The position numbers and the translations under genes were made by a program. This document shows, piece by piece, positions 717-11,299 of a DNA stretch of 24,518 nucleotides. Under the pieces are notes generated by a model, which saw only the letters and a program-made list of their open reading frames with translations, was not told where the DNA came from and did not search any database. The stretch is from a virus: positions 1 through 24,518 of IMG/VR virus record IMGVR_UViG_3300030060_001699; one strand, 5' to 3'. Numbering within the stretch: the stretch's first letter is position 1; every line of letters starts with the position of its first letter.

Positions 717-1541
717 ATGGCATCAACATACACACCTTTAGGGGTAGAACTTCAACAAACAGGTGAAAACGCTGGAACTTGGGGTTCAAAAACAAATGTA
801 AACTTACAAGTCATTGAACAAATATCTGGTGGTTTTACACAACAAGCTTTAACTAGTGGTGGGACTGTTGCTTTAACAAGTAGTGATGGAGGAACAGGAG
901 ATGTTCTTGCGCATAGAATAATAGAATTTACTGGTTCATTATCCGATAATGCAGTTGTTACAATACCTCTTGATGTACAAAATTTTTATCTTTTAAGAAA
1001 TTCTAGTTCTGGTGCATATACGGTTCAGTTTAAATATACGTCTGGATCAGGAAGTTCTGTAACTTTTTCTGCTACAGATAAAGGAGATAAATTAGTTGTT
1101 GCAAAAGGTGATGATGGAACTAATCCTAACATAGTAGAAATATCATTAGCTACAGCAGGCACAGTAACAGAAACTGGCACACAAACTTTAACAAATAAAA
1201 CATTAACATCACCTAAAATAGGAACATCTATTTTAGATACGAATGGCAATGAACTATTTAAATTAACAGCTACAAGTTCCGCGGTTAATGAAATAACATA
1301 CAATAACGCAGCTACAGGAAACAAACCAACACTTACTGCATCTGGTGATGATACTAATATTGGTGTATCCATACAGCCAAAAGGCTCAGGGACAGTAACT
1401 ATTGATGCTTTGACATTTCCAGCGGCGGATGGTACAAGTGGCCAAATACTACAGACTGATGGTTCTGGAACACTAAGTTTTACAACGTCAAGCGGTATAT
1501 CAATGGGAAAAGCTATTGCAGCTGCGATAGTTTTCGGATAA
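717..1541 (+). CDS. Phage tail-fibre-like structural protein
   Basis: 274 residues. The start is supported by AGGAG at 702-706, ten bases before the ATG. The N-terminus (TPLGVELQQTGENAGTWG, then a TNVNLQVIEQ-type stretch) is a recognisable opening of fibre-like proteins in marine phages. A short motif near residues 155-168 (TQTLTNKTLTSPKI) occurs widely in phage fibre and collar proteins. The C-terminal third carries a GTSGQILQTDGSGTLSF segment, also typical of fibres, and ends in a short hydrophobic tail (GKAIAAAIVFG). There is no enzyme motif. The neighbours on both sides are beta-rich virion proteins, so a role in the tail or adsorption apparatus is likely. Assignment to a particular virion position is not possible from sequence alone. 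Confidence 0.8.
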   Translation: MASTYTPLGVELQQTGENAGTWGSKTNVNLQVIEQISGGFTQQALTSGGTVALTSSDGGTGDVLAHRIIEFTGSLSDNAVVTIPLDVQNFYLLRNSSSGAYTVQFKYTSGSGSSVTFSATDKGDKLVVAKGDDGTNPNIVEISLATAGTVTETGTQTLTNKTLTSPKIGTSILDTNGNELFKLTATSSAVNEITYNNAATGNKPTLTASGDDTNIGVSIQPKGSGTVTIDALTFPAADGTSGQILQTDGSGTLSFTTSSGISMGKAIAAAIVFG

Positions 1542-1563
1542 AAGGAGTTTAGGAGAATAAAAA

Positions 1564-1923
1564 ATGGCAGCACCAAATATAGTAAATGTCACAACGATTA
1601 ACGGTAAATCAGCAGTAGCTGATTTAAGCACAACTTTAACAACTACATTATTAACTGCAGCATCAGATCAAGTTAACAAAATTAATTTAATCAGAGTTAC
1701 AAACGTAACAGACAACGATGCAACAGTTACAATCGATTCAGAAGTTTCAGGAACTCACAAAGAACTAGCTGATGAACTTACAGTTCCAGCTCACGCTTCA
1801 GTTGACGTAGTAGATAAAAATTCATCTTTCTATTTACAAGAAACTGATCTTATTAGAGGTGGAGCATCAGCAGCATCAACATTAGTAGTCACAATATCAT
1901 ACGAATTGATAGACGACGCATAG
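1564..1923 (+). CDS. Small beta-rich phage virion protein (first of two related copies)
   Basis: 119 residues, with AGGAG at 1551-1555 eight bases before the ATG. The opening MAAPNIVNVTTI is one I recognise from T4-like cyanophage and other marine phage structural proteins. The rest alternates hydrophobic and Thr/Ser-rich segments, consistent with a single beta-sandwich. It shares its layout with the 113-residue protein at 13660-14001: a TTLTTTLLT-like start, a strand with K-I-N-L-I-R-V, then T-V-T-I-D. The two are probably diverged paralogs. No signal peptide or membrane segment is present. Its stop TAG overlaps the Shine-Dalgarno (AGGAG, 1922-1926) of the next gene. It is likely a decoration, neck or tail-accessory protein; the exact role is unknown. 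Confidence 0.75.
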   Translation: MAAPNIVNVTTINGKSAVADLSTTLTTTLLTAASDQVNKINLIRVTNVTDNDATVTIDSEVSGTHKELADELTVPAHASVDVVDKNSSFYLQETDLIRGGASAASTLVVTISYELIDDA

Positions 1924-1935
1924 GAGAACTAAGCT

Positions 1936-3915
1936 ATGGCTGAAAGTTATCCTAGACGAAACCAAGCCAGAGGGCTTTGGAAGATCAACGACATTACTAA
2001 AAATATAAAAGACGAAGGAACTTATCCTCAAGCATACTCTAATAAAGGTTTTTTTGGTGGAGGGAATACTGGTTCTAATGTAAATACAATTGATCAGATA
2101 ATTATACAAAGTGCTGGGAATGCAACTGACTTTGGCGATTTAGCACAAGGCAAAAATGGTATGGGTTCTACTGGTACACCTACAAGAGCATTTTGGTTAG
2201 GTGGATATACTGGAGGTGGTTCTCCAAATATGACATCTCAAATTGATACTATAAACTTTGCAACAGCAGGAAACTGTTCGGATTTTGGTGATACAAGTGT
2301 TCAAAGATACATGATGGGAACAGCAGGAAAAGATACAAGAATATGTGTTGCTGGTGGCTATGCATCACCTAGTTTCCAAAACGTAATAGATTTTATAACC
2401 CCTACAACTTTGGGTGATGCAACCGATTTTGGAGATTTAACAGGATCAAGATCAGATGTTGGAGGAACATCTAATACAACAAGAGGTGTTTTTTTTGCAG
2501 GTGCACCAGGAACAAGTAATGTTATAGATTTTATCGAATTTTCTACAACAGGTAATGCTGTGGATTTTGGTGATTTACCAACAGCCATTAAATCTCCTAC
2601 AGGTTCATCTACTTCTACAAAAGGTTTTATAAGTGGTGGAGGATCAGGAAGTTATCCAGCGGATACACCTGTAAACACAATATCTGAAATTACATTTGGT
2701 ACGTTAGGAAATGCCACAGATTTTGGAGACTTAACTGTTGCCAGAATAACTGCTGCTGCAGTTTGTGATAATACAAAATCTGTAATTGCTGGTGGTTCAA
2801 CAGCCTCTAGTCAAGACTCAAGAAATACAAGTAACGTTATTGATTCATTTATAATGACCACACGAGGTAATGCTACAGATTTTGGTGATCTAAGTGTAGC
2901 TAGAAGAGTAGCAGGTGGTGCATGTGGTGGTCACGGTGGTATAGAAAAATCTCAACCAAGAGCCCCAGAACTTTATTCACCAACAGGTAAACCTTTAGCA
3001 CAAGGTGCTGGTATAGGAAATATTGGTATTTTTATGGGTGGAAAAAATAATGGAGGCACCGCACAATCAAAAATTGATTTTATAAATATTTCAAATTTAG
3101 GTAATTCTTTAAATTTTGGAGACATGGGTGCTACAGCATTTGCTAATGCTAGTTTTTCAAGTGCCACAAGAGGGTTTACTGCAGGGGGAACTAGCGCAGC
3201 TCAGTCTACTGACATTCGATACATTGAAATGCAATCAAAAGGAAATGCTTCAGATTTTGGAGACTCAACAATAAATTTTTGGTACGCTAGTGGAGGATCT
3301 AATTCTACTAGAGGTATAACTTATGGTGGTGAAGTTTCTCCTGCTGCAGTTAATACAATACAATATGTGACTATGGCTAGTATCGGTAATGCAACTGATT
3401 TTGGAGATTTGACTTTAATTAGATATACTCCAAATGCAACTGGAAATTCAACTCGTGGAATATGTGCAGGTGGATATGCTACAGCACCTACTAATTCGGT
3501 GGTTAATATTATAGATTACATAACAATTGGATCTACAGGAAATGCTACAGACTTTGGAGATTTAACACAAGCGAGATATGATGGTGGTGCTGTTAGCTCT
3601 ACAACAAGAGGTATAGTAGGTGGAGGAACTGATTCAGGTCCAAATAAATATAATATTTTAGATTATATAACAATTGCTTCTACGGGAAATGCAACAGATT
3701 TTGGCGATCTAACAGTTGCTAGAGGTGGATTAGCTGGATGCACTGGTAATTCTTTAAGAGGTCTATGGGCAGGAGGACAGTCGCCTACTATAGATACTAT
3801 AGACTACGTAACAATCGCTTCAACAGGTAATGCAATTGATTTTGGAGATTTAAGTTTGGCTATGTATGGTGGATGTCGTGGAGCTATTTCTACTGGACAT
3901 GGTGGACTTTCATAA
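1936..3915 (+). CDS. Repeat protein A: two six-repeat (propeller-like) arrays, putative receptor-binding or fibre protein
   Basis: 659 residues. AGGAG at 1922-1926 lies nine bases before the ATG. Residues 1-30 hold a short N-terminal module with ARGLWKINDI, shared with proteins B and D. Two arrays follow, at residues 34-336 and 361-659. Each has six repeats of about 48 residues on the pattern R-G-(h)3-G-G, N-x-I-D-Y-h-T-I, then T-G-N-A-T-D-F-G-D-L-T-x-A-R. Each array ends in a His-Gly-Gly cap (GHGGI, GHGGL). A linker rich in Pro, Gln and Gly joins them. The Gly-Gly doublet followed by strands recalls Kelch beta-propellers, and six repeats would suit a six-bladed ring; this is inference. No coiled coil or catalytic residues are seen. 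The best guess is an adhesin or fibre on the virion. Confidence 0.8.
   Translation: MAESYPRRNQARGLWKINDITKNIKDEGTYPQAYSNKGFFGGGNTGSNVNTIDQIIIQSAGNATDFGDLAQGKNGMGSTGTPTRAFWLGGYTGGGSPNMTSQIDTINFATAGNCSDFGDTSVQRYMMGTAGKDTRICVAGGYASPSFQNVIDFITPTTLGDATDFGDLTGSRSDVGGTSNTTRGVFFAGAPGTSNVIDFIEFSTTGNAVDFGDLPTAIKSPTGSSTSTKGFISGGGSGSYPADTPVNTISEITFGTLGNATDFGDLTVARITAAAVCDNTKSVIAGGSTASSQDSRNTSNVIDSFIMTTRGNATDFGDLSVARRVAGGACGGHGGIEKSQPRAPELYSPTGKPLAQGAGIGNIGIFMGGKNNGGTAQSKIDFINISNLGNSLNFGDMGATAFANASFSSATRGFTAGGTSAAQSTDIRYIEMQSKGNASDFGDSTINFWYASGGSNSTRGITYGGEVSPAAVNTIQYVTMASIGNATDFGDLTLIRYTPNATGNSTRGICAGGYATAPTNSVVNIIDYITIGSTGNATDFGDLTQARYDGGAVSSTTRGIVGGGTDSGPNKYNILDYITIASTGNATDFGDLTVARGGLAGCTGNSLRGLWAGGQSPTIDTIDYVTIASTGNAIDFGDLSLAMYGGCRGAISTGHGGLS
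2035..2943 (+). repeat. Six-repeat array A1 (GNATDFGDL type)
   Basis: Six repeats carrying FGD cores (GNATDFGDL, GNCSDFGDT, GDATDFGDL, GNAVDFGDL and two more), closed by CGGHGGI. Confidence 0.85.
3016..3909 (+). repeat. Six-repeat array A2 (GNATDFGDL type)
   Basis: Six repeats. The first core is diverged (GNSLNFGDM); the last four are close to consensus. It is closed by STGHGGL at the protein C-terminus. Confidence 0.85.
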
Positions 3916-3931
3916 GATTCTATAGTATAAA
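3903..3931 (+). promoter_or_regulatory. Candidate promoter in the gap before the 284-residue gene
   Basis: TGGACT at 3903-3908, a 17-base spacer and TATAAA at 3926-3931 resemble a sigma-70 promoter (four and five of six consensus bases). It lies at the start of a 62-base gap, the longest gap in this gene-dense region. In AT-rich DNA such matches occur by chance, so support is modest. Confidence 0.35.
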
Positions 3932-3977
3932 ACCCACAACATGATCATATACATGCTAAATCATAAAGGAGAAAAAT

Positions 3978-4832
3978 ATGTCATCATCTAAAGATCTGGT
4001 AATTCAGAAACTATCAAACTCACCACTGGTTAAAAAAGAGTATAAACAAATGTTAACCAACATCAACGCAACACTACCAGCAATAAAACAATCAAGCTCA
4101 AACTTTTATAAATCACATTCACAATTTATGGGTGTTATGCTAGATGTTACAGCAATTACACCTATTAGATCAGTTAAACATACGCTAGCTGAACTAGATA
4201 AAACTAGAATGGCTTTAGAAGAAGCACAGCTTAAACTGATGAAAAAGGATATAGAGCTTCGTCAAAAAGAAAAAAAGATGGCTGATGGAGATTACAAGGA
4301 CGAGTTTGAAAGAGAACTACTTGATACAGAGATTCTAGAGATTAAGGTAAATATGAACAATATACAAAATTCAGTATCTGGAGCCATTAGAAAGATGAAC
4401 TTCTTTACTAATCAGTATAAGAGTATCTTGAAGAAGTTAGGTAAAGATGATATCACAGAGGAAGAGTACGAAAAAGAAGAGTCTAGATATCATGTGATGA
4501 CTTGCATGAAACAGGCTCTGAATGCTGCCCGTGCTAGAGGTGGAGTCATTGACGAAGGAAACTTGATTTATCTCTTTGATATGGGTATAAATAGTGCACA
4601 GGCACAAGCTGAAATTTATGCTTATTTAGAAATGGAAAATAAGTTAATGAAAGAAGGCAAAGCGCCTACCCACGAAATGACCATGCAATGGTTAGAAGCG
4701 TGCGCTGACAAATTCTCTGGTGACTCTGTTAAGTTTGCAGAACGAAGAGGATTCAAGCTATACGATGAAGAGTCGCTCAATACTAAACTTTTAGATAATA
4801 AGGAGAAACCAAATGGCAAACAAGATAGTTAA
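3978..4832 (+). CDS. Phage protein of unknown function with coiled coil
   Basis: 284 residues. A good Shine-Dalgarno (AAAGGAGAAAAAT) precedes the ATG. Residues about 68-115 are strongly charged and heptad-like (a Leu/Ala pattern with many Lys and Glu), predicting a long coiled coil. The C-terminal half is helical, with a conserved-looking segment around AARARGGVIDEGNL and a closing stretch with EACADKFSGD. I see no catalytic or metal motif. It is unlike its neighbours: helical, charged, and with more varied codons (several CGT and CTG codons) than the surrounding AGA-rich fibre genes. It overlaps the next gene by 20 bases. Together they interrupt the repeat-protein series, suggesting an inserted two-gene cassette. 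The function is unknown; chaperone or assembly roles are possible but unproven. Confidence 0.75.
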   Translation: MSSSKDLVIQKLSNSPLVKKEYKQMLTNINATLPAIKQSSSNFYKSHSQFMGVMLDVTAITPIRSVKHTLAELDKTRMALEEAQLKLMKKDIELRQKEKKMADGDYKDEFERELLDTEILEIKVNMNNIQNSVSGAIRKMNFFTNQYKSILKKLGKDDITEEEYEKEESRYHVMTCMKQALNAARARGGVIDEGNLIYLFDMGINSAQAQAEIYAYLEMENKLMKEGKAPTHEMTMQWLEACADKFSGDSVKFAERRGFKLYDEESLNTKLLDNKEKPNGKQDS

Positions 4833-5100
4833 ATACAAACTTACAGATGCAGGTACAATTCCAACATGGATAGATGATGGTGGATATTATCCTGACCCTG
4901 AAGAAGTTATGATCGGTGCAACGGTTGATGGTTCAAGTGAAGTAGGACTTGGTGAACTTGCAAGTGAAGCAGATGTAAAAACATATTTAGATAGTTATAC
5001 ATCTGACTGGACTGATGAAGATCCTACTAATCCAGATGCAACTGTACCATTCGATCAAGCAGCTGCAGCCACATACGTCTGGTCTAAAAAGATAGGTTAG
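4813..5100 (+). CDS. Small acidic phage protein of unknown function
   Basis: 95 residues, with AAGGAG at 4800-4805 seven bases before the ATG, inside the end of the preceding gene. It has many Asp and Glu and few basic residues after the first 10. It begins MANKIVKYKLTDAGTIPTWI, reads into an acidic middle (SEVGLGELASEADVKTYL), and ends with an Ala-rich helix and VWSKKIG. I recognise no domain. It stops three bases before repeat protein B begins, whose own ribosome binding site is weak, so translation of B is probably coupled to it. Acidic small proteins directly before a fibre gene could act as an adaptor or chaperone, but that is only a positional argument. Confidence 0.7.
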   Translation: MANKIVKYKLTDAGTIPTWIDDGGYYPDPEEVMIGATVDGSSEVGLGELASEADVKTYLDSYTSDWTDEDPTNPDATVPFDQAAAATYVWSKKIG

Positions 5101-5103
5101 TAA

Positions 5104-6993
5104 ATGGCTAACTACCCGCAACTCGATAACGCTAGAGGCGTTTGGAACCTGCGTGAAGTCTATGACGCGGTAATGGGTGGGTATTGGCCTAATTATAATT
5201 CAATAGCTTTAGTTTCAGGTTTTGATTCTTCTACTATGAGTGTGGATAAAGCTACTATTTCAACAACAGGTAGCTCATCTGTTTTTGGTAATTTATCAGT
5301 TGGAAGAGCACAATTAGGAGCTGCAGGATCTATAACTAGAGGATTATTTTTTGGCGGCTATACAGGATCAACACTTCAAGATGAAATAGATTATGCAACT
5401 TTTACTACAACAGGAAATTTTGCAGACTTTGGTAATTTAACAACTGCTAGAAGACTTACTGCATCTGCTAGTAATTCAATAAGAGCGGTAACTATGGGAG
5501 GAGCAACTCCAAGTGGTTCTAATGTTGTTGATTATGTAACAATAAATTCTACCGGTAACGCAACAGATTTTGGCGATACAACTAGTGCAAGATTTGTTAA
5601 TGGTTCAGGTTCGTCTCCAACGAGAGCATTTAACGCTGGTGGTGGAACACCTTCAGCTAGTAACATAATAGATTTTTTAACTTTTTCTACAACAGGAAAT
5701 ATGACAGACTTTGGGGATCTTCAACAAACTAATGATGGTGCCCCTCAAGGTGCATGTAGTTCTACAAGAGGGGTATTTTGTGGTGGTACACCAGCCACAT
5801 TAACAATGCTTCAGTTTATAACAATGGCATCACAAGGTAATTCTATTGACTATGGAGACCTAACAGATGGCAGACAAAATGGTGGAGCAACTTCTAATTC
5901 TGTTAGAGGTTTATATTTATCAGGATATAAATCACCCTCAACTCAAACTAATATTGATTTTTGGACAATAGCAAATGGCGGTACAGCGGCAGATTTTGGA
6001 AATACAACTAGAGCGTATTATTATGCAGCTGCAACTTCAAGCTCACACGGCGGACTAAACGACGGGTATCAAGGAACAAGACCAATACCTTTCAACGAAG
6101 CTGGTGGAGATAGAGGATTATTTATGGCTGGTGAATCACCTACTCTTAGATCTCTTATAAACAAAATAACAATAAGCACAGATGGGGACGCAGCAGATTT
6201 TGGAGATTTAAGTATTGCACGTTATGGTGGATCAGGAGGAGGAAGTAAAACTAGAGGTATTATTATAGGAGGTTTGGCACCATCTGTAACTAATAGCATA
6301 GAATACGTTACTTTTTCAACAGATGGAAATGCAGCAGATTTTGGAGATGATCTAGAATCAAAACAGATTGCAGCAGCATGTAATAACAACACAAGAATGT
6401 TAAATGCAGGTGGAAGAAAATCTTCCAACTATGACACAAATGTTATTAGTTATATTACAATGTCAACATTAGGTAATGCGGCTGATTTTGGAGATCAAAA
6501 TGTTCAAAGACAAAATTTAAAAGGATGTGCTTCTAACACCAGAGGATTATGGGGTGGTGGTTATAAATCTCCAGGAGCTGGAGCAAATGATATAGATTAT
6601 GTAACAATTGCTACTTTAGGTAACGCTGCAGATTTTGGTGATTTAAATAATGCTGTTTACGTTCCTGCTTGTTTAGCTTCTACAACAAGAGGAATTTTTG
6701 CTGGTGGAACTACTACTTCCACTGTTTTAAACGTAATAGAATATATTACTATTGCTACAACAGGTAACGCAACAGATTTTGGTGATTTAACTACAGCAAC
6801 CGCTGCTCTTGACGGAGTATCTAATACAATTAGAGGCGTGACTGGTGGAGGTGAAACACCTAGTAAAACAAACACAATGAACAAGATAACTATTGCATCA
6901 ACAGGTAACGCTACTGATTATGGAGATTTAATTTTTAGTGTAGGTAAACCATCTGGAGCATCAAACGGACATGGAGGATTAGTCGGTGGCTAG
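5104..6993 (+). CDS. Repeat protein B: two six-repeat (propeller-like) arrays, putative receptor-binding or fibre protein
   Basis: 629 residues. Only a weak AGG precedes the ATG, which follows the previous stop by three bases. The N-terminal module (residues 1-30) contains DNARGVWNLREVYDAV and a Gly-Gly-Tyr-Trp-Pro end. This is a recognisable opening of many marine phage fibre proteins and probably a virion-attachment segment. Array 1 covers residues 32-318 and array 2 residues 336-626. Each has six repeats and ends SHGGL and GHGGL respectively. Repeat cores in array 1 vary more (VFGNL, DFGNL, DYGDL) than in array 2. Codons for the final HGGL (CAT GGA GGA TTA) also provide the Shine-Dalgarno for the next gene, with which it overlaps by eight bases. 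Function is inferred as adsorption. Confidence 0.8.
   Translation: MANYPQLDNARGVWNLREVYDAVMGGYWPNYNSIALVSGFDSSTMSVDKATISTTGSSSVFGNLSVGRAQLGAAGSITRGLFFGGYTGSTLQDEIDYATFTTTGNFADFGNLTTARRLTASASNSIRAVTMGGATPSGSNVVDYVTINSTGNATDFGDTTSARFVNGSGSSPTRAFNAGGGTPSASNIIDFLTFSTTGNMTDFGDLQQTNDGAPQGACSSTRGVFCGGTPATLTMLQFITMASQGNSIDYGDLTDGRQNGGATSNSVRGLYLSGYKSPSTQTNIDFWTIANGGTAADFGNTTRAYYYAAATSSSHGGLNDGYQGTRPIPFNEAGGDRGLFMAGESPTLRSLINKITISTDGDAADFGDLSIARYGGSGGGSKTRGIIIGGLAPSVTNSIEYVTFSTDGNAADFGDDLESKQIAAACNNNTRMLNAGGRKSSNYDTNVISYITMSTLGNAADFGDQNVQRQNLKGCASNTRGLWGGGYKSPGAGANDIDYVTIATLGNAADFGDLNNAVYVPACLASTTRGIFAGGTTTSTVLNVIEYITIATTGNATDFGDLTTATAALDGVSNTIRGVTGGGETPSKTNTMNKITIASTGNATDYGDLIFSVGKPSGASNGHGGLVGG
5197..6057 (+). 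repeat. Six-repeat array B1 (GNATDFGDL type)
   Basis: Six repeats with variable cores (SVFGNL, ADFGNL, TDFGDT, TDFGDL, IDYGDL, ADFGNT), closed by SSSHGGL. Confidence 0.8.
6109..6981 (+). repeat. Six-repeat array B2 (GNATDFGDL type)
   Basis: Six repeats, mostly with the core GNAADFGD or GNATDFGDL and the last GNATDYGDL, closed by SNGHGGL. Confidence 0.85.
6973..6988 (+). promoter_or_regulatory. Shine-Dalgarno inside the HGGL cap codons, with a GTG start
   Basis: GGAGG at 6973-6977 lies eight bases before the GTG at 6986. The same bases encode the Gly-Gly of the cap of protein B. This decides the non-ATG start of protein C. Confidence 0.7.
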
Positions 6994-8230
6994 GTCAACA
7001 ACATTTAAATTAAATATAACTGTAGTAAATCCAGGTTCTGGCAATAAATACTACATAGATGGAATATTACAAACGTATATAACTTTGTTTCCTGGTTGCA
7101 CATACGAGTGGAATCAAGATGATAGTTCTAATAGTGGACACCCTTTAAGATTTTCTGAAACACCGGATGGCACACATAATTCAGGATCGGAGTATACCAC
7201 TGGAGTGACCACATCAGGAACACCTGGTTCTGCAACTGCATTCACAAAAATAGAAGTTACAACTTCAACACCATATAGATTATATTATTATTGCACTCAA
7301 CACTCTGGTATGGGTAATGAAGTTACTGTACAACAAGCAGGTGGAAATACACGAGCTTATTACGCAGGTGCTTATCCATCTTTTTCAAACCAAATAGCAA
7401 TGACGGATATGGCGTCATCTGGAAGTTTTTTTGATTTTGGAGACATAAGTGGAAGTAAATATGCTGTTGGTGGATTTGGAAATACCATTAAAGGTTGTTT
7501 ATTTGGTGGCTCACCTGATGGAGGAACCACTCTTTCAAATGTTATAGATCAATTTTTCCCATTATCATCAGCAATAGTTTCTGACTTTGGAAATTTAACA
7601 CAAGGAGCTAATTATCCAGTTGGGATATCAAATGATACAAGAGGTGTAAGATGTGGGGGGTATGTATCACCAGGAACATATACCAATGTTATGGATTATG
7701 TTACTATAGCTACAGCAGGTGATGCAACTGATTTTGGTGATATGAGTGCTGGTAAAAATAATATTGGTTGTTTTGGTTCTACTACTAGAGGAGTAATAAA
7801 TGGTGGTTATTCAGGTTCAGTAATAAACGTAATAGAATACATAACAATATTATCAACAGGTAATACAACAGATTTTGGAGATTTAAGTTCAGTTAGAAGT
7901 GGGTTAGCTGGTGCATCTTCTTCAACGAGAGGTGTAGTTGCAGGAGGGGCAAGTCCTAGCGTTGTAAACACTATTGAATATGTGACAATTGCCTCTACTG
8001 GTAATGCTACAGATTTTGGAGATTTAACATCAGCTAGAGGAAATATAAAATGTTCAGCTTCAAATAAAACACTAGCCATATATGGTGGTGGTAGAACGCC
8101 TAGTAATGTTTCAACTACCGATAGGATAAATATAGCTTCAACAGGAAATGGAACAACTTATGGTGATGTTCTTACTGCTGGAGGATATAATCAAAGCTCT
8201 AGTTCTACAGGTCACGGAGGTTTAGCATAA
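6986..8230 (+). CDS. Repeat protein C: N-terminal cupredoxin-like domain plus one six-repeat array
   Basis: 414 residues with a GTG start, chosen because GGAGG lies eight bases upstream. Residues about 5-117 look like a cupredoxin beta-barrel: a first strand (FKLNITVVNPG), a mid-domain His in GHPLRF (His52), and a closing loop YYYCTQHSGMGNEVTV giving Cys103, His106 and Met109. The spacing Cys-x2-His-x2-Met matches amicyanin-type blue copper sites, so all four type-1 ligands appear present. Residues 121-413 form one six-repeat array ending TGHGGLA. Unlike A, B and D it lacks the ARGVW-type N-terminal module, so the copper-like domain takes that place. There is no signal peptide. Related domains occur in marine phage structural proteins. 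Copper binding is inferred; a purely structural domain is possible. Confidence 0.78.
   Translation: MARSTTFKLNITVVNPGSGNKYYIDGILQTYITLFPGCTYEWNQDDSSNSGHPLRFSETPDGTHNSGSEYTTGVTTSGTPGSATAFTKIEVTTSTPYRLYYYCTQHSGMGNEVTVQQAGGNTRAYYAGAYPSFSNQIAMTDMASSGSFFDFGDISGSKYAVGGFGNTIKGCLFGGSPDGGTTLSNVIDQFFPLSSAIVSDFGNLTQGANYPVGISNDTRGVRCGGYVSPGTYTNVMDYVTIATAGDATDFGDMSAGKNNIGCFGSTTRGVINGGYSGSVINVIEYITILSTGNTTDFGDLSSVRSGLAGASSSTRGVVAGGASPSVVNTIEYVTIASTGNATDFGDLTSARGNIKCSASNKTLAIYGGGRTPSNVSTTDRINIASTGNGTTYGDVLTAGGYNQSSSSTGHGGLA
7346..8224 (+). repeat. Six-repeat array C1 (GNATDFGDL type)
   Basis: Six repeats, starting from FFDFGDI and including GDATDFGDM, GNTTDFGDL and GNATDFGDL, with the last GNGTTYGDV. Closed by STGHGGL. 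Confidence 0.85.
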
Positions 8231-8232
8231 TG
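8216..8232 (+). promoter_or_regulatory. Shine-Dalgarno inside the HGGL cap codons for protein D
   Basis: GGAGGT at 8216-8221 encodes part of the cap of protein C and lies eight bases before the ATG at 8230. The stop and start share a base (TAATG). Confidence 0.7.
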
Positions 8233-10095
8233 TCTAACGCAGGAAAAGTTTGGGATATTAGAGAAGCTTATAAAAAACAAAGAGGTAACCAGTGGGACGC
8301 TGGTAATGGTAGTAAAGCTTTAGTAGGTGGTGGATACACTCCAAGTAATACAAATAAAATTGAAACTTTTAATATAGCTGTAGCAGGTAATGCTACAGAT
8401 TTTGGTGATTTAAGAGGAACTGTTGGTGAAGCCCAATCTGGAGCTTCTCCTACTCGTGCTTTTTGGGCAAGAGGAGGGTCTACTGAACAAGTAAATTTTG
8501 AAGCAGGAGGAAACACTGCAAATTTTGTATCGCTTGGAATAACTCCTAGAACTCATGGAGCAGCAGGGGACAGCACTCGTTCTATGTTTATGGGTAATGG
8601 AGCACCTGCATTTTCAAATACAGTTGAGTATATAGAAACAGCAAATAGTGGATTTAAAGCAGACTTTGGAAATCTTTCAAATGGAACTGATAGAGGAGGT
8701 GCTTTATCTAGTCCTACAAGAACTTTATTTGCAGGAGGAGAAAAATCAGATGGAAATAATACAAACGCTATTGATTTTTTTACAACAGCAACAACTGGTA
8801 ATGCGACAGACTTTGGTGATTTAACTGTAGCAAATCGACATCTAGGTGGAGCAGGTTCAACTACTAGAGGTCTTTTTTTTAATAGTTATACAACCACTAG
8901 AATAAAAACTGTAGATGTTGTTCAAATCGCCTCAACAGGAAACGCAACAGACTTTGGTGATATGACAACTGCTGTCGCTGTTCCAAGTTCAACGTCAAAT
9001 AAAACAAGAGCAGTTCGTTGTGGTGGTTCTACACCAACTCTTCAAAACACAATAGAATTTGTAACAATAGCAACTACCGGGGATGGAACAGATTTTGGTG
9101 ATTTGACCGAGGCTAAAAGTGGTACTAATACTTGTAGTAATGGTCACGGTGGATTAGATTTAGGAGTGTTACCACGTTCATCAGTAACCCATATGCCTGG
9201 ATCAGGTAGAGGTTTAGTTCAAGGTGTTGGAGTGCCATTTAACACTAATGTTGATCTTGTTCATATTCCTACTGCAGGTAATTCATCAGATTTTGGAGAT
9301 ACTACTTCATCTAGAAATTATGCTGCAGGAGCTAGTTCTTTAACAAGAGGTATTGCAGGAGGAGGATCTAGTCCATCTGCTGTAAATGTAATTGATGTTA
9401 CAGAAATGGCATCAAGAGGTACGTATTCTGATTTTGGAGATACATCAGTTACAAGAGCTAGATCTGCAGGAAACGTGTGTAGTCCAACAAGAGCATTATT
9501 TTCAGGAGGAGACACTCCTACAAAATCAGATGTAATTGATTACATTACTATGGCGTCTGTTGGTAACGCTACAGATTTTGGAAACTTAACAGTAGCAAGA
9601 ACAGATGCAGCTGGAGGTTTATCTAGTTCAGTAAGAGGAGTCGTAGGAGGAGGTGCAACTCCAAGCACTACAGAATCAAATATAATGGATTACGTAACTA
9701 TTGCTTCAACAGGAGATTCTACAGATTTTGGTGACTTGTCTGCTGGTAGAACTTATTTAAACGGAGTATCTTCTTCTACAAGAGGAGTATTTGGTTCAGG
9801 AATAACCACACCATCTTCTCCTTACGGAGGGGCAATACTTGATTACATAACAATAGCATCAACAGGTAATGCTACTGATTTTGGTGATCCTAGTCAAAAT
9901 AGATACGGCGCTGCAGGAATGAGTAATTCAATTAGAGGTGTATTTGCGGGAGGTAGATTGGCTCCAAACAACTATAACACTATAGACTTTATAACAATTG
10001 CTTCAACAGGAAATGCTGCAGACTTTGGAGATTTATCAAATACAGGTGAATGTTTATGTGGAGCATCTGATAATCATGGTGGTTTACAAGCATAA
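8230..10095 (+). CDS. Repeat protein D: two six-repeat (propeller-like) arrays, putative receptor-binding or fibre protein
   Basis: 621 residues. The start overlaps the previous stop as TAATG with GGAGGT eight bases upstream. The N-terminus carries a diverged copy of the shared module (AGKVWDIREAYKKQRGNQW). Array 1 spans residues 28-309 and ends NGHGGL. Array 2 spans residues 326-619 and ends DNHGGL. The second repeat of array 1 is degenerate: the FGDL core has become NFVSLG, though the flanking Gly-Gly and the repeat length are kept. The linker between arrays (DLGVLPRSSVTHMPGS) differs from those of A and B. The last member of the cluster, it is followed after 24 bases by the oxygenase pair. 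The role as a surface adhesin is inferred. Confidence 0.8.
   Translation: MSNAGKVWDIREAYKKQRGNQWDAGNGSKALVGGGYTPSNTNKIETFNIAVAGNATDFGDLRGTVGEAQSGASPTRAFWARGGSTEQVNFEAGGNTANFVSLGITPRTHGAAGDSTRSMFMGNGAPAFSNTVEYIETANSGFKADFGNLSNGTDRGGALSSPTRTLFAGGEKSDGNNTNAIDFFTTATTGNATDFGDLTVANRHLGGAGSTTRGLFFNSYTTTRIKTVDVVQIASTGNATDFGDMTTAVAVPSSTSNKTRAVRCGGSTPTLQNTIEFVTIATTGDGTDFGDLTEAKSGTNTCSNGHGGLDLGVLPRSSVTHMPGSGRGLVQGVGVPFNTNVDLVHIPTAGNSSDFGDTTSSRNYAAGASSLTRGIAGGGSSPSAVNVIDVTEMASRGTYSDFGDTSVTRARSAGNVCSPTRALFSGGDTPTKSDVIDYITMASVGNATDFGNLTVARTDAAGGLSSSVRGVVGGGATPSTTESNIMDYVTIASTGDSTDFGDLSAGRTYLNGVSSSTRGVFGSGITTPSSPYGGAILDYITIASTGNATDFGDPSQNRYGAAGMSNSIRGVFAGGRLAPNNYNTIDFITIASTGNAADFGDLSNTGECLCGASDNHGGLQA
8311..9156 (+). 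repeat. Six-repeat array D1 (GNATDFGDL type)
   Basis: Six repeats with the second core degenerate (GNTANFVSLG). Closed by CSNGHGGL. Confidence 0.8.
9205..10086 (+). repeat. Six-repeat array D2 (GNATDFGDL type)
   Basis: Six repeats (SSDFGDT, YSDFGDT, ATDFGNL, STDFGDL, ATDFGDP, AADFGDL). Closed by SDNHGGL. Confidence 0.85.
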
Positions 10096-10119: not shown

Positions 10120-10746
10120 ATGAAAGAAGAATTATTACAGTTATTTCCTACACCTTTATTGATCGTGCCATACGAACAACCGATTGATAAAGAGTTAGAT
10201 TATTTAAAAACTATTAGTTATCGTAAACAACAACAGAATGGTAATTTTAGATCTGATGATTCTTATCTGTTACGTAACGAAGAGTTTAAAGATATAAAAA
10301 ATTTTTTAGGAGAGGCTATAAATAAATTTACAACAAACGTTTTAAATACAAAACAAAGGTTAGTTATTACACAATGTTGGGCTAACAGAAATCCAAAAGG
10401 ATCTAAACATCATGAACACGTGCATCCAAATAGTATTATATCTGGTGTAATGTATTTTCAAATAAACGAAAAACTACCGCCTATATCTTTTTCTAAAGAT
10501 AGACAAGATGGTATGAAACTAGATCCAGAAAAATATAACCATATGAATTCAGAATCATTTATGCTACCTTGCAAACCAGGTGAATTAATATTATTTCCAT
10601 CTTCATTGAAACATAGCGTACCAATTAATCACGGTGAAGAAGATAGAATAAGTGTATCATTCAATACATTTTGTATTGACGCTATTGGATCAGAACAATC
10701 ACTAACTCATTTAGATATAAGGAGGTTAATGAATGAGCACAATTAA
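10120..10746 (+). CDS. Putative 2-oxoglutarate/Fe(II) oxygenase (2OG-FeII_Oxy_5 / TIGR02466-like)
   Basis: 208 residues. The N-terminus LFPTPLL is the usual opening of this family. Residues 97-112 (His-rich HHEHVHPNS followed by ISGVMYF) match the family signature H-x-H-x-x-S-x-x-SGVYY, supplying Fe ligands from His100/His102. The distal ligand is His165 in LFPSSLKHSV. Arg176 in DRISVSFN would bind the 2-oxoglutarate carboxylate. The length suits a single double-stranded beta-helix. The substrate is unknown; phage copies often lie near structural genes. The start has no clear Shine-Dalgarno. The last codons overlap the next oxygenase by 14 bases and contain its strong AAGGAGG. Family membership is fairly sure; a target among the tail proteins is speculation. 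Confidence 0.82.
   Translation: MKEELLQLFPTPLLIVPYEQPIDKELDYLKTISYRKQQQNGNFRSDDSYLLRNEEFKDIKNFLGEAINKFTTNVLNTKQRLVITQCWANRNPKGSKHHEHVHPNSIISGVMYFQINEKLPPISFSKDRQDGMKLDPEKYNHMNSESFMLPCKPGELILFPSSLKHSVPINHGEEDRISVSFNTFCIDAIGSEQSLTHLDIRRLMNEHN
10721..10735 (+). promoter_or_regulatory. Strong Shine-Dalgarno fixing the second oxygenase start
   Basis: GGAGG at 10721-10725, in the context AAGGAGGT, lies seven bases before the ATG at 10733. The nearby ATG at 10729 is in the frame of the upstream gene (its Met204), so it is not the start. Confidence 0.7.
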
Positions 10747-11299
10747 AAGTTATATATACGTAAAAAATCACATACCAAAAGAAGTATGTGAAGCATTAAT
10801 AGATGAATGCAATAAAAAGATATGGGAGAAACATAAATGGAATAATTACGCTGCAGGCACAATGACATCAGAACCAACAAAAGAATTAGATGTAATGCCT
10901 TGCACTAAAGAACAACAAGAAAAGATAACACCATATTTAGTCAAAGCATTAGGTGAGTATCAAGAAAAACATAGTGTACCAGGAGACAAGACTCAAGGAC
11001 CATGGCTCAGTAAATTTAGTCCCATACGTTTTAACAGATATCCTGTAGGCACTATGATGAGAGAACATTATGATCATATACATAGTATCTTTGATGGTCA
11101 GATGAAAGGGGTGCCTTTAGTATCTATTGTAGCCAACCTAAATGAAGACTATGAGGGCTCTGAATTCTATTGCAGAGGAGAGAAAATTGAGTTAAAAACG
11201 GGTGATATACTATTATTTCCATCTAATTTTATGTATCCACATGAAGTTAGAGAGACTACAAAAGGCACGCGTTACTCATTTGTAAGCTGGGCCTTTTAA
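10733..11299 (+). CDS. Putative 2-oxoglutarate/Fe(II) oxygenase, prolyl-4-hydroxylase type
   Basis: 188 residues. The core runs from FNRYPVGTMMREHYDHIH through LVSIVANLNEDYEGSEFYC to TGDILLFPSNFMYPHEV and GTRYSFVSW. The facial triad is complete: His112 and Asp114 (H-Y-D), and His170. Arg180, ten residues after the distal His, is the expected 2-oxoglutarate binder. The layout is that of prolyl-4-hydroxylase (P4Hc) and related phage oxygenases, which hydroxylate protein side chains. It overlaps the upstream oxygenase by 14 bases and has the strongest Shine-Dalgarno in this region, so the pair is likely made together. They belong to different subfamilies, so this is not a tandem duplication. The substrate is unknown. 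The gene ends just before the next start at 11316. Confidence 0.86.
   Translation: MSTIKSYIYVKNHIPKEVCEALIDECNKKIWEKHKWNNYAAGTMTSEPTKELDVMPCTKEQQEKITPYLVKALGEYQEKHSVPGDKTQGPWLSKFSPIRFNRYPVGTMMREHYDHIHSIFDGQMKGVPLVSIVANLNEDYEGSEFYCRGEKIELKTGDILLFPSNFMYPHEVRETTKGTRYSFVSWAF

Follow-up and report, generated by a model that had tools for sequence, protein, structure and literature searches.

Arrays of six repeats in a marine phage are predicted to form Kelch-type rings that related phages appear to exchange whole

Kelch-type proteins of phages and the ring block

Kelch-type propellers are known from jumbo phages (CBB_550, CBB_552 and CBB_554; Erwinia phage pEa_SNUABM_12; PhiPA3 and BcepSaruman), where the Kelch protein CBB_552 is present in the virion of phage CBB (PMC5259590) and the function of such proteins is given as unknown (PMC7760394); Kelch repeats are also enriched in marine long reads (PMC9238414). 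Metaviromic islands, in turn, place hypervariable recognition genes among conserved marine phage genes (PMC3909814). Here we describe a block of four open reading frames (ORFs), A (1936-3915), B (5104-6993), C (6986-8230) and D (8230-10095), all on the + strand of a viral DNA stretch of 24,518 nucleotides (the window; positions 1 to 24,518 of IMG/VR record IMGVR_UViG_3300030060_001699), whose products carry arrays of six repeats, each predicted to fold into one ring. We consider it likely that these closed Kelch rings are swappable, virion-borne host-recognition domains. Kelch proteins in phages being already known, what is new here is whole rings as exchange cassettes, and in the literature searched, with most subscription papers outside the reach of the search, we found no account of hexad-quantised rings or of ring exchange.

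The jumbo-phage proteins resemble those of the window in being Kelch-type propellers, but they match standard Kelch families, and strict HGG-capped hexads, a tandem seven-ring block and ring exchange are not reported in PMC5259590 or PMC7760394. The ring block of the window too is a hypervariable island between conserved flanks; the available part of the report on metaviromic islands (PMC3909814), however, names tail fibres, C1q, lectin and carbohydrate-binding domains, and neither propellers nor whole-ring exchange. The Kelch proteins of Synechococcus phage S-SKS1 and its metagenomic relatives (loci L101-L173), hereafter the sister family, have homologous repeats that likewise come in hexads, but they have a motif of their own (YGYFGGG...IDRLDFSNET...LPQARxxLAAVSSSS), neither an HGG cap nor an array end that is fixed, a spacing of 56-77 residues between successive rings, and scores above the Pfam Kelch cut-offs. 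With Keap1, KLHL12 and the designed SAKe6, finally, the window proteins share six four-stranded blades of ~47-50 residues, a GG ending strand b, and an alignment over the full ring. They differ from these in showing 10-18% sequence identity to them, in having no match to the Pfam Kelch models, in a ring that ends in HGG, and in the aromatic of strand d, which is the Phe of DFGD, 12 residues past a Tyr, where Kelch has Trp.

Arrays of six repeats and their predicted fold

A recount gave 42 repeats in A, B, C and D (12, 12, six and 12), falling into seven arrays of six (two, two, one and two), every one of which ends in (G/S/N)HGG(L/I) and none of which has five or seven repeats; an earlier sequence-only reading of this DNA was right in all of this. 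In order, the rings are A1 (2041-2943, ending GGHGGI), A2 (3019-3912, TGHGGL), B1 (5197-6060, SSHGGL), B2 (6109-6984, NGHGGL), C1 (7346-8227, TGHGGL), D1 (8308-9159, NGHGGL) and D2 (9205-10089, DNHGGL), supported by repeat count throughout, by the structure model also for C1, D1 and D2, and by Foldseek also for C1 and D2. The repeats close with [D/V/T][F/Y]G[D/N] or a degenerate variant of it. An array consists of six halves of the type TRGxxxGG...NxIDYxTIASTGNATDFGD, followed by one LTxARxxxxGxS half and the HGG; because it starts at the TRG strand and ends at the LTxARxxxxGxS strand, it shows a one-strand permutation with respect to the repeat. Repeat lengths are 46-53 amino acids with a single exception, the degenerate second repeat of D1, which at 41 had not kept its length as the same reading supposed. 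Nor are the four genes all adjacent, as it had them: two unrelated genes (3978-4832 and 4813-5100) sit between A and B.

AlphaFold2 models of C and D, built with alignments of relatives, reached a predicted local distance difference test score (pLDDT) of 82 for D and 77 for C (mostly 80-95 in the C ring, 40-65 in the C N-terminal domain), and blades have four strands in both, the short D1 blade included. In Foldseek searches against the PDB, both models best matched the six-bladed Kelch domains of KLHL12, Keap1 and SAKe6, with expect values (E) of 1e-13 to 1e-16, best target-normalised template modelling scores of 0.83-0.91 and alignments of ~290-300 columns, which is the entire ring; best matches in BFVD were proteins of uncultured Caudovirales, S-SKS1, a BcepSaruman Kelch protein and poxvirus Kelch proteins. 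At the sequence level, Pfam enzyme families gave no match to A-D, a PDB sequence search returned chance-level matches only, one of 50 relatives matched Pfam Kelch (E=0.07), and in PHROG, A-D matched families whose function is unknown and, by the N-terminus of C, tail-fibre families as well. The Kelch glycine doublet is present as GG at positions 25 and 26 of the repeat (ortholog identities 0.71 and 0.85); the Tyr-x6-Trp signature is absent, the repeat consensus having Tyr36 and Phe48 without Trp. The sister family passes the Pfam Kelch cut-offs (PF24681 to E=9e-34; Kelch_3, E=9e-12), aligns with the window family in hhalign at a probability of 99.2% over 283 columns, and is matched by the window-family repeat hidden Markov model with E down to 1e-101. 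Being both Kelch by Pfam and a homolog of the window family, the sister family marks the window proteins as divergent relatives of Kelch; as these lack the signature and score below the Pfam cut-off, we file them as a Kelch-type propeller family outside the Pfam Kelch motif families. That each A-D array is a closed six-bladed Kelch-type beta-propeller, as the sequence-only reading proposed, is thus a prediction supported by the C and D models, by whole-ring Foldseek alignments and by the census of hexads. Structure prediction and structural search, which it had suggested as checks, yielded no open solenoids, and the best PDB matches were six-bladed Kelch propellers.

The number six holds well beyond the window. 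In a first set of 80 viral loci, six repeats were counted in 261 of 264 complete arrays, the other three being detection misses or cut. A wider census of ~230 related loci (L009-L096 without S-SKS1, plus L174-L324) gave six repeats in 528 of 567 complete arrays and twelve in 9 and, by whole ORFs, 347 with six repeats and 90 with twelve; the loci being partly redundant, these figures are counts and not independent events. Most of the 15 odd ORFs in this census turned out on reading by hand to be missed or false matches, interrupted ORFs or frameshifts. Apparent exceptions with 3, 4, 5, 7, 8 or 11 repeats were for the most part traced in this way to missed weak blades, false matches in N-terminal domains, interrupted ORFs and a frameshift (L228), which we assumed to apply to the odd count of L230 as well. 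Some contigs of the census set had been assigned to bins of Parcubacteria, Nomurabacteria, Porticoccaceae, Maricaulis and a Thermoprotei archaeon, and all of these have six. The uncut ORFs of the sister family comprise 68 with 12 repeats, 5 with 18, 3 with 24 and 3 with 6, the remainder being mostly frameshifted or poorly detected. In its proteins of 12 repeats, repeats 6 and 7 are spaced at least 54 residues apart in 99% (median 58) versus 3-15% elsewhere (median ~48), and in those of 18 or 24 repeats the long spacings fall precisely after repeats 6, 12 and 18, which is incompatible with an open chain whose length is free. The census excludes chance as the source of the regularity in A-D; in homologs, where the repeat number was to be checked by count, it is fixed at six or a multiple of six and does not vary freely.

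Duplication of a ring block was rejected as the sole origin of the arrays. Repeat similarity falls smoothly with distance without a clear peak at lag 6, which implies that blade-level turnover or homogenisation is also at work. The 2+2+1+2 layout was found again in L010, L035, L043, L048 and L090, the last (1015-9140) being a full seven-ring block in a contig that is filed as an Epulopiscium single-cell genome and is probably a phage or seawater contaminant. Locus L015 (392-8767), with seven consecutive genes of one six-bladed ring each, represents another route to seven rings. S-SKS1 itself (L089, 1657-6192) has two 12-repeat Kelch genes that are frame-broken in the public record and largely unannotated; a count of 13 spanning the record ends was not used because the junction is unreliable.

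The HGG segment had been read as completing the ring. The ring of six stands, but HGG as its closing piece probably does not: in the D model, where arrays begin at strand b, the rings would be closed by strands a (E300-303 and E610-613) that lie ~12 residues ahead of HGG, and HGG occupies the site where the next TRG strand would begin. Moreover, HGG is found at 218 of 287 array ends and is dispensable at the other 69, so that it was rejected as an essential closing element; ~60 of these 69 carry NGG, SGG, NPA or AVQ-type endings and the rest are cut by the contig end. Judging by the model, HGG looks like the exit of the chain from the ring and not a lock. In the arrangement we propose, each repeat would be one four-stranded blade, the last strand of the array would complete the first blade, and the chain would then leave at the HGG cap.

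Exchange of rings between related phages

In A, B and D the first ring follows an N-terminal tag and is joined to the second by a linker, and both are conserved among orthologs. In A, the tag (MAESYPRRNQARGLWKINDITKNIKDEGTYP..., 1936-2040) has a mean ortholog identity of ~0.6 over residues 1-20 while the blades vary, and the linker (2944-3018) is conserved as well; in B, identity is ~0.87 in the tag (MANYPQLDNARGVWNLREVYDAVMGGYWPN, 5104-5196; mean over residues 1-30) and ~0.8 in the linker (NDGYQGTRPIPFNEAGG, 6061-6108; residues 311-330); in D, it is 0.76-0.80 over residues 1-20 of the tag (MSNAGKVWDIREAYKKQRGNQW..., 8230-8307), and the linker (9160-9204) holds an identity breakpoint at residues 328-329 versus L084 and L041. 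The single ring of C follows a cupredoxin-like domain (6986-7345), which is beta-rich in its low-confidence model and matches the PHROG tail-fibre families phrog_30742 (E=4e-25) and phrog_693 (E=7e-16).

Genes around A-D are 90-100% identical in close relatives, and A-D are ~40-95% identical. The change can be abrupt within one protein: between A of the window and A of L010, residues 1-350 are ~99% and residues 351-659 ~48% identical, with the breakpoint at residue 353, in the linker. Calculated per ring, A1 is 98% identical in amino acids with a synonymous divergence (dS) of 0.08, and A2, wholly replaced in L010, 49% with a dS of 1.07. Against L009, the B tag is 100% and B2 98% identical and B1 has been replaced (43%, dS 1.18), while against L010 the cupredoxin-like domain of C is ~96% and its ring ~52% identical. 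One B2 recurs in the window, L010, L009 and L090, next to B1 rings of several kinds. When all pairwise combinations of 92 two-ring proteins were segmented, 88 sharp breakpoints emerged, 64 between tag and ring 1, 21 in the linker between ring 1 and ring 2, three within ring 2 and none within ring 1; hence 85 of 88 (43 of 45 without duplicates) fall on ring boundaries, and these account for 13.8% of the length. In the ring-swap pairs examined, dS was 0.02-0.28 for the kept ring and 0.87-1.44 for the replaced one, and because synonymous divergence also jumps there, the ring-1/ring-2 breakpoints represent recombination. Ring 2 is moreover common to A-type and D-type proteins in independent contigs (L029 with L038 and L026; L048 with L077). 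On the strength of these comparisons, the unit of exchange between related phages appears to be the whole ring. Replacement of a single ring would be possible because the ring is self-contained and lies between conserved stretches of tag and linker DNA; rings would then be swapped singly and entire by recombination, both from phage to phage and from one paralog to another, with the fold unbroken.

Within the blade, conservation is highest at G49, G43, F48, G26, D47 and R20. It is lowest at positions 10-12 (0.13-0.14), which lie between strands d and a, and at positions 27 and 31 (0.15-0.17), which belong to the b-c loop. The ligand face of Keap1-type domains is made by their d-a and b-c loops.

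Gene setting and proposed role

Upstream of the block, a tail-fibre-type protein (717-1541) matches HTVC023P gp69 at its N-terminus, and a gene downstream is 45-48% identical to its counterparts in phage 023Pt_psg01 and the pelagiphages HTVC027P and HTVC023P (48% to the latter two), other homologs being annotated as phage stabilization protein, that is, P22 gp10-like. The gp10-like gene, the similar tail-fibre N-terminus, a helicase and 2-oxoglutarate (2OG) oxygenases point to a possible affinity with HTVC023P-type pelagiphages. Between A and B lie two non-propeller companion genes that are highly conserved in close relatives and accompany most ring blocks in many phages, phrog_1409 (function unknown; 3978-4832) and a small one (4813-5100), which are perhaps assembly or attachment factors; the former is 95-100% identical in close relatives with differing A-D and stands beside most ring blocks at 56-65% identity or more. 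Directly behind the ring block follow two 2OG-Fe(II) oxygenase genes (10120-11299), which most close relatives share at 84-99% identity; similar genes flank the corresponding place in pelagiphages and S-SKS1. At 2-703, the window encodes a protein of short TGxxxSxSxGSxxx-type repeats, in style like HTVC023P gp68; HTVC023P gp70, in the same place as the ring block, was considered as a ring and rejected, being a glycine-rich protein. The cupredoxin-like domain of C is common to phage tail fibres and baseplate wedge proteins and is ring-attached also in L028, L035, L048, L050 and L090. Long N-terminal domains precede a single ring in L013 and L082, and among the proteins scanned, two have a match to Laminin_G_3 in Pfam; from these we infer that rings are joined with several other anchor domains. 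A plasmid search for ring proteins found nothing.

Gene position, the shared tail-fibre domain and the pattern of variability suggest that A-D are most likely virion adhesins with interchangeable rings. The tag, or in C the cupredoxin-like domain, would attach the protein to the virion at a site that is probably close to the P22 gp10-like tail hub, and the variable d-a segments together with the starts of the b-c loops would form the face that binds a host surface molecule. Ring exchange would then probably serve to alter the cell surface that the phage recognises. We give about an even chance to a combinatorial form of recognition, in which the seven rings of a phage are cassettes swapped whole at tags and linkers, paralogs included, so as to yield new surfaces with the fold intact. 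Several observations weigh against virion-borne, swappable recognition rings. Cultured pelagiphage relatives have other genes in place of the ring block, and a search of the phage collection found no cultured phage with the ring subfamily of the window; the closing strand of the C model has two residues only, at low confidence; the tag/ring-1 breakpoints taken alone could be explained by differing evolutionary rates, as the dS test covers ring/ring cases only; and the ratio of nonsynonymous to synonymous divergence (dN/dS) is 0.29-0.58 in the closest pairs, below 1, so that this measure does not show positive selection.

These dN/dS values also fit an unlikely alternative, in which the rings serve the virion as structural decoration or as parts resembling whiskers and diverge mostly by neutral drift and general recombination; phage CBB, with CBB_552 in its mature virion, does bear whiskers (PMC5259590). 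In the window and its relatives, however, neighbouring virion genes stay 90-100% identical while the rings drop to ~45%, and variability is concentrated on the segments of the Kelch ligand face. The genes moreover lie within the virion structural block, with the tail-fibre-like gene on one side and the gp10-like hub gene on the other; this setting, the domain that C has in common with phage tail fibres and a variation pattern like that of surface proteins make it very improbable that A-D are non-virion adaptors made inside the cell during infection, as in poxviruses, even if poxvirus Kelch proteins are among the structural matches. Propellers of galactose-oxidase-like or sialidase-like fold can be enzymes, and some phage records are named galactose oxidase; that A-D are such enzymes acting on surface glycans is nevertheless highly improbable, as the positions that do not vary are for the most part glycines, aromatics and turn residues found again in each blade, no catalytic set specific to one blade was seen, no Pfam enzyme family matches, and the top structural matches are binding-type Kelch domains.

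The other two alternatives concern the rings and their junctions. The data come almost entirely from metagenome contigs, and the DNA of two linkers can be 95% identical over ~60 bases, so that assembly chimeras at conserved tags and linkers might be suspected behind the ring-boundary junctions. We judge this improbable: in the L012/L063, L029/L038 and L048/L077 swaps the linkers are 44-65% identical in DNA and thus share no k-mers (just 44-46% in the A-type and D-type proteins with a common ring 2, which argues against chimeras at shared k-mers), a ring 2 common to both types occurs in several independent contigs, and the window, L010, L009 and L090 combine one B2 with several different B1 rings. 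An open solenoid, for which we found nothing beyond the fact that long repeat proteins can be open, has next to no chance of being right and was ruled out by the Foldseek matches and by a hexad quantum that persists even in proteins of 12-24 repeats.

If A-D are indeed exchangeable recognition rings, a large and mostly unannotated group of marine phage proteins gains a fold and a testable role. The closed ring as a natural unit of exchange would explain why recombination between very divergent repeat proteins can be safe, and the hexad rule offers a means of delimiting such domains from sequence only. Host recognition is poorly known in pelagiphage-related phages, and single rings of ~300 amino acids would be convenient for expression and testing.

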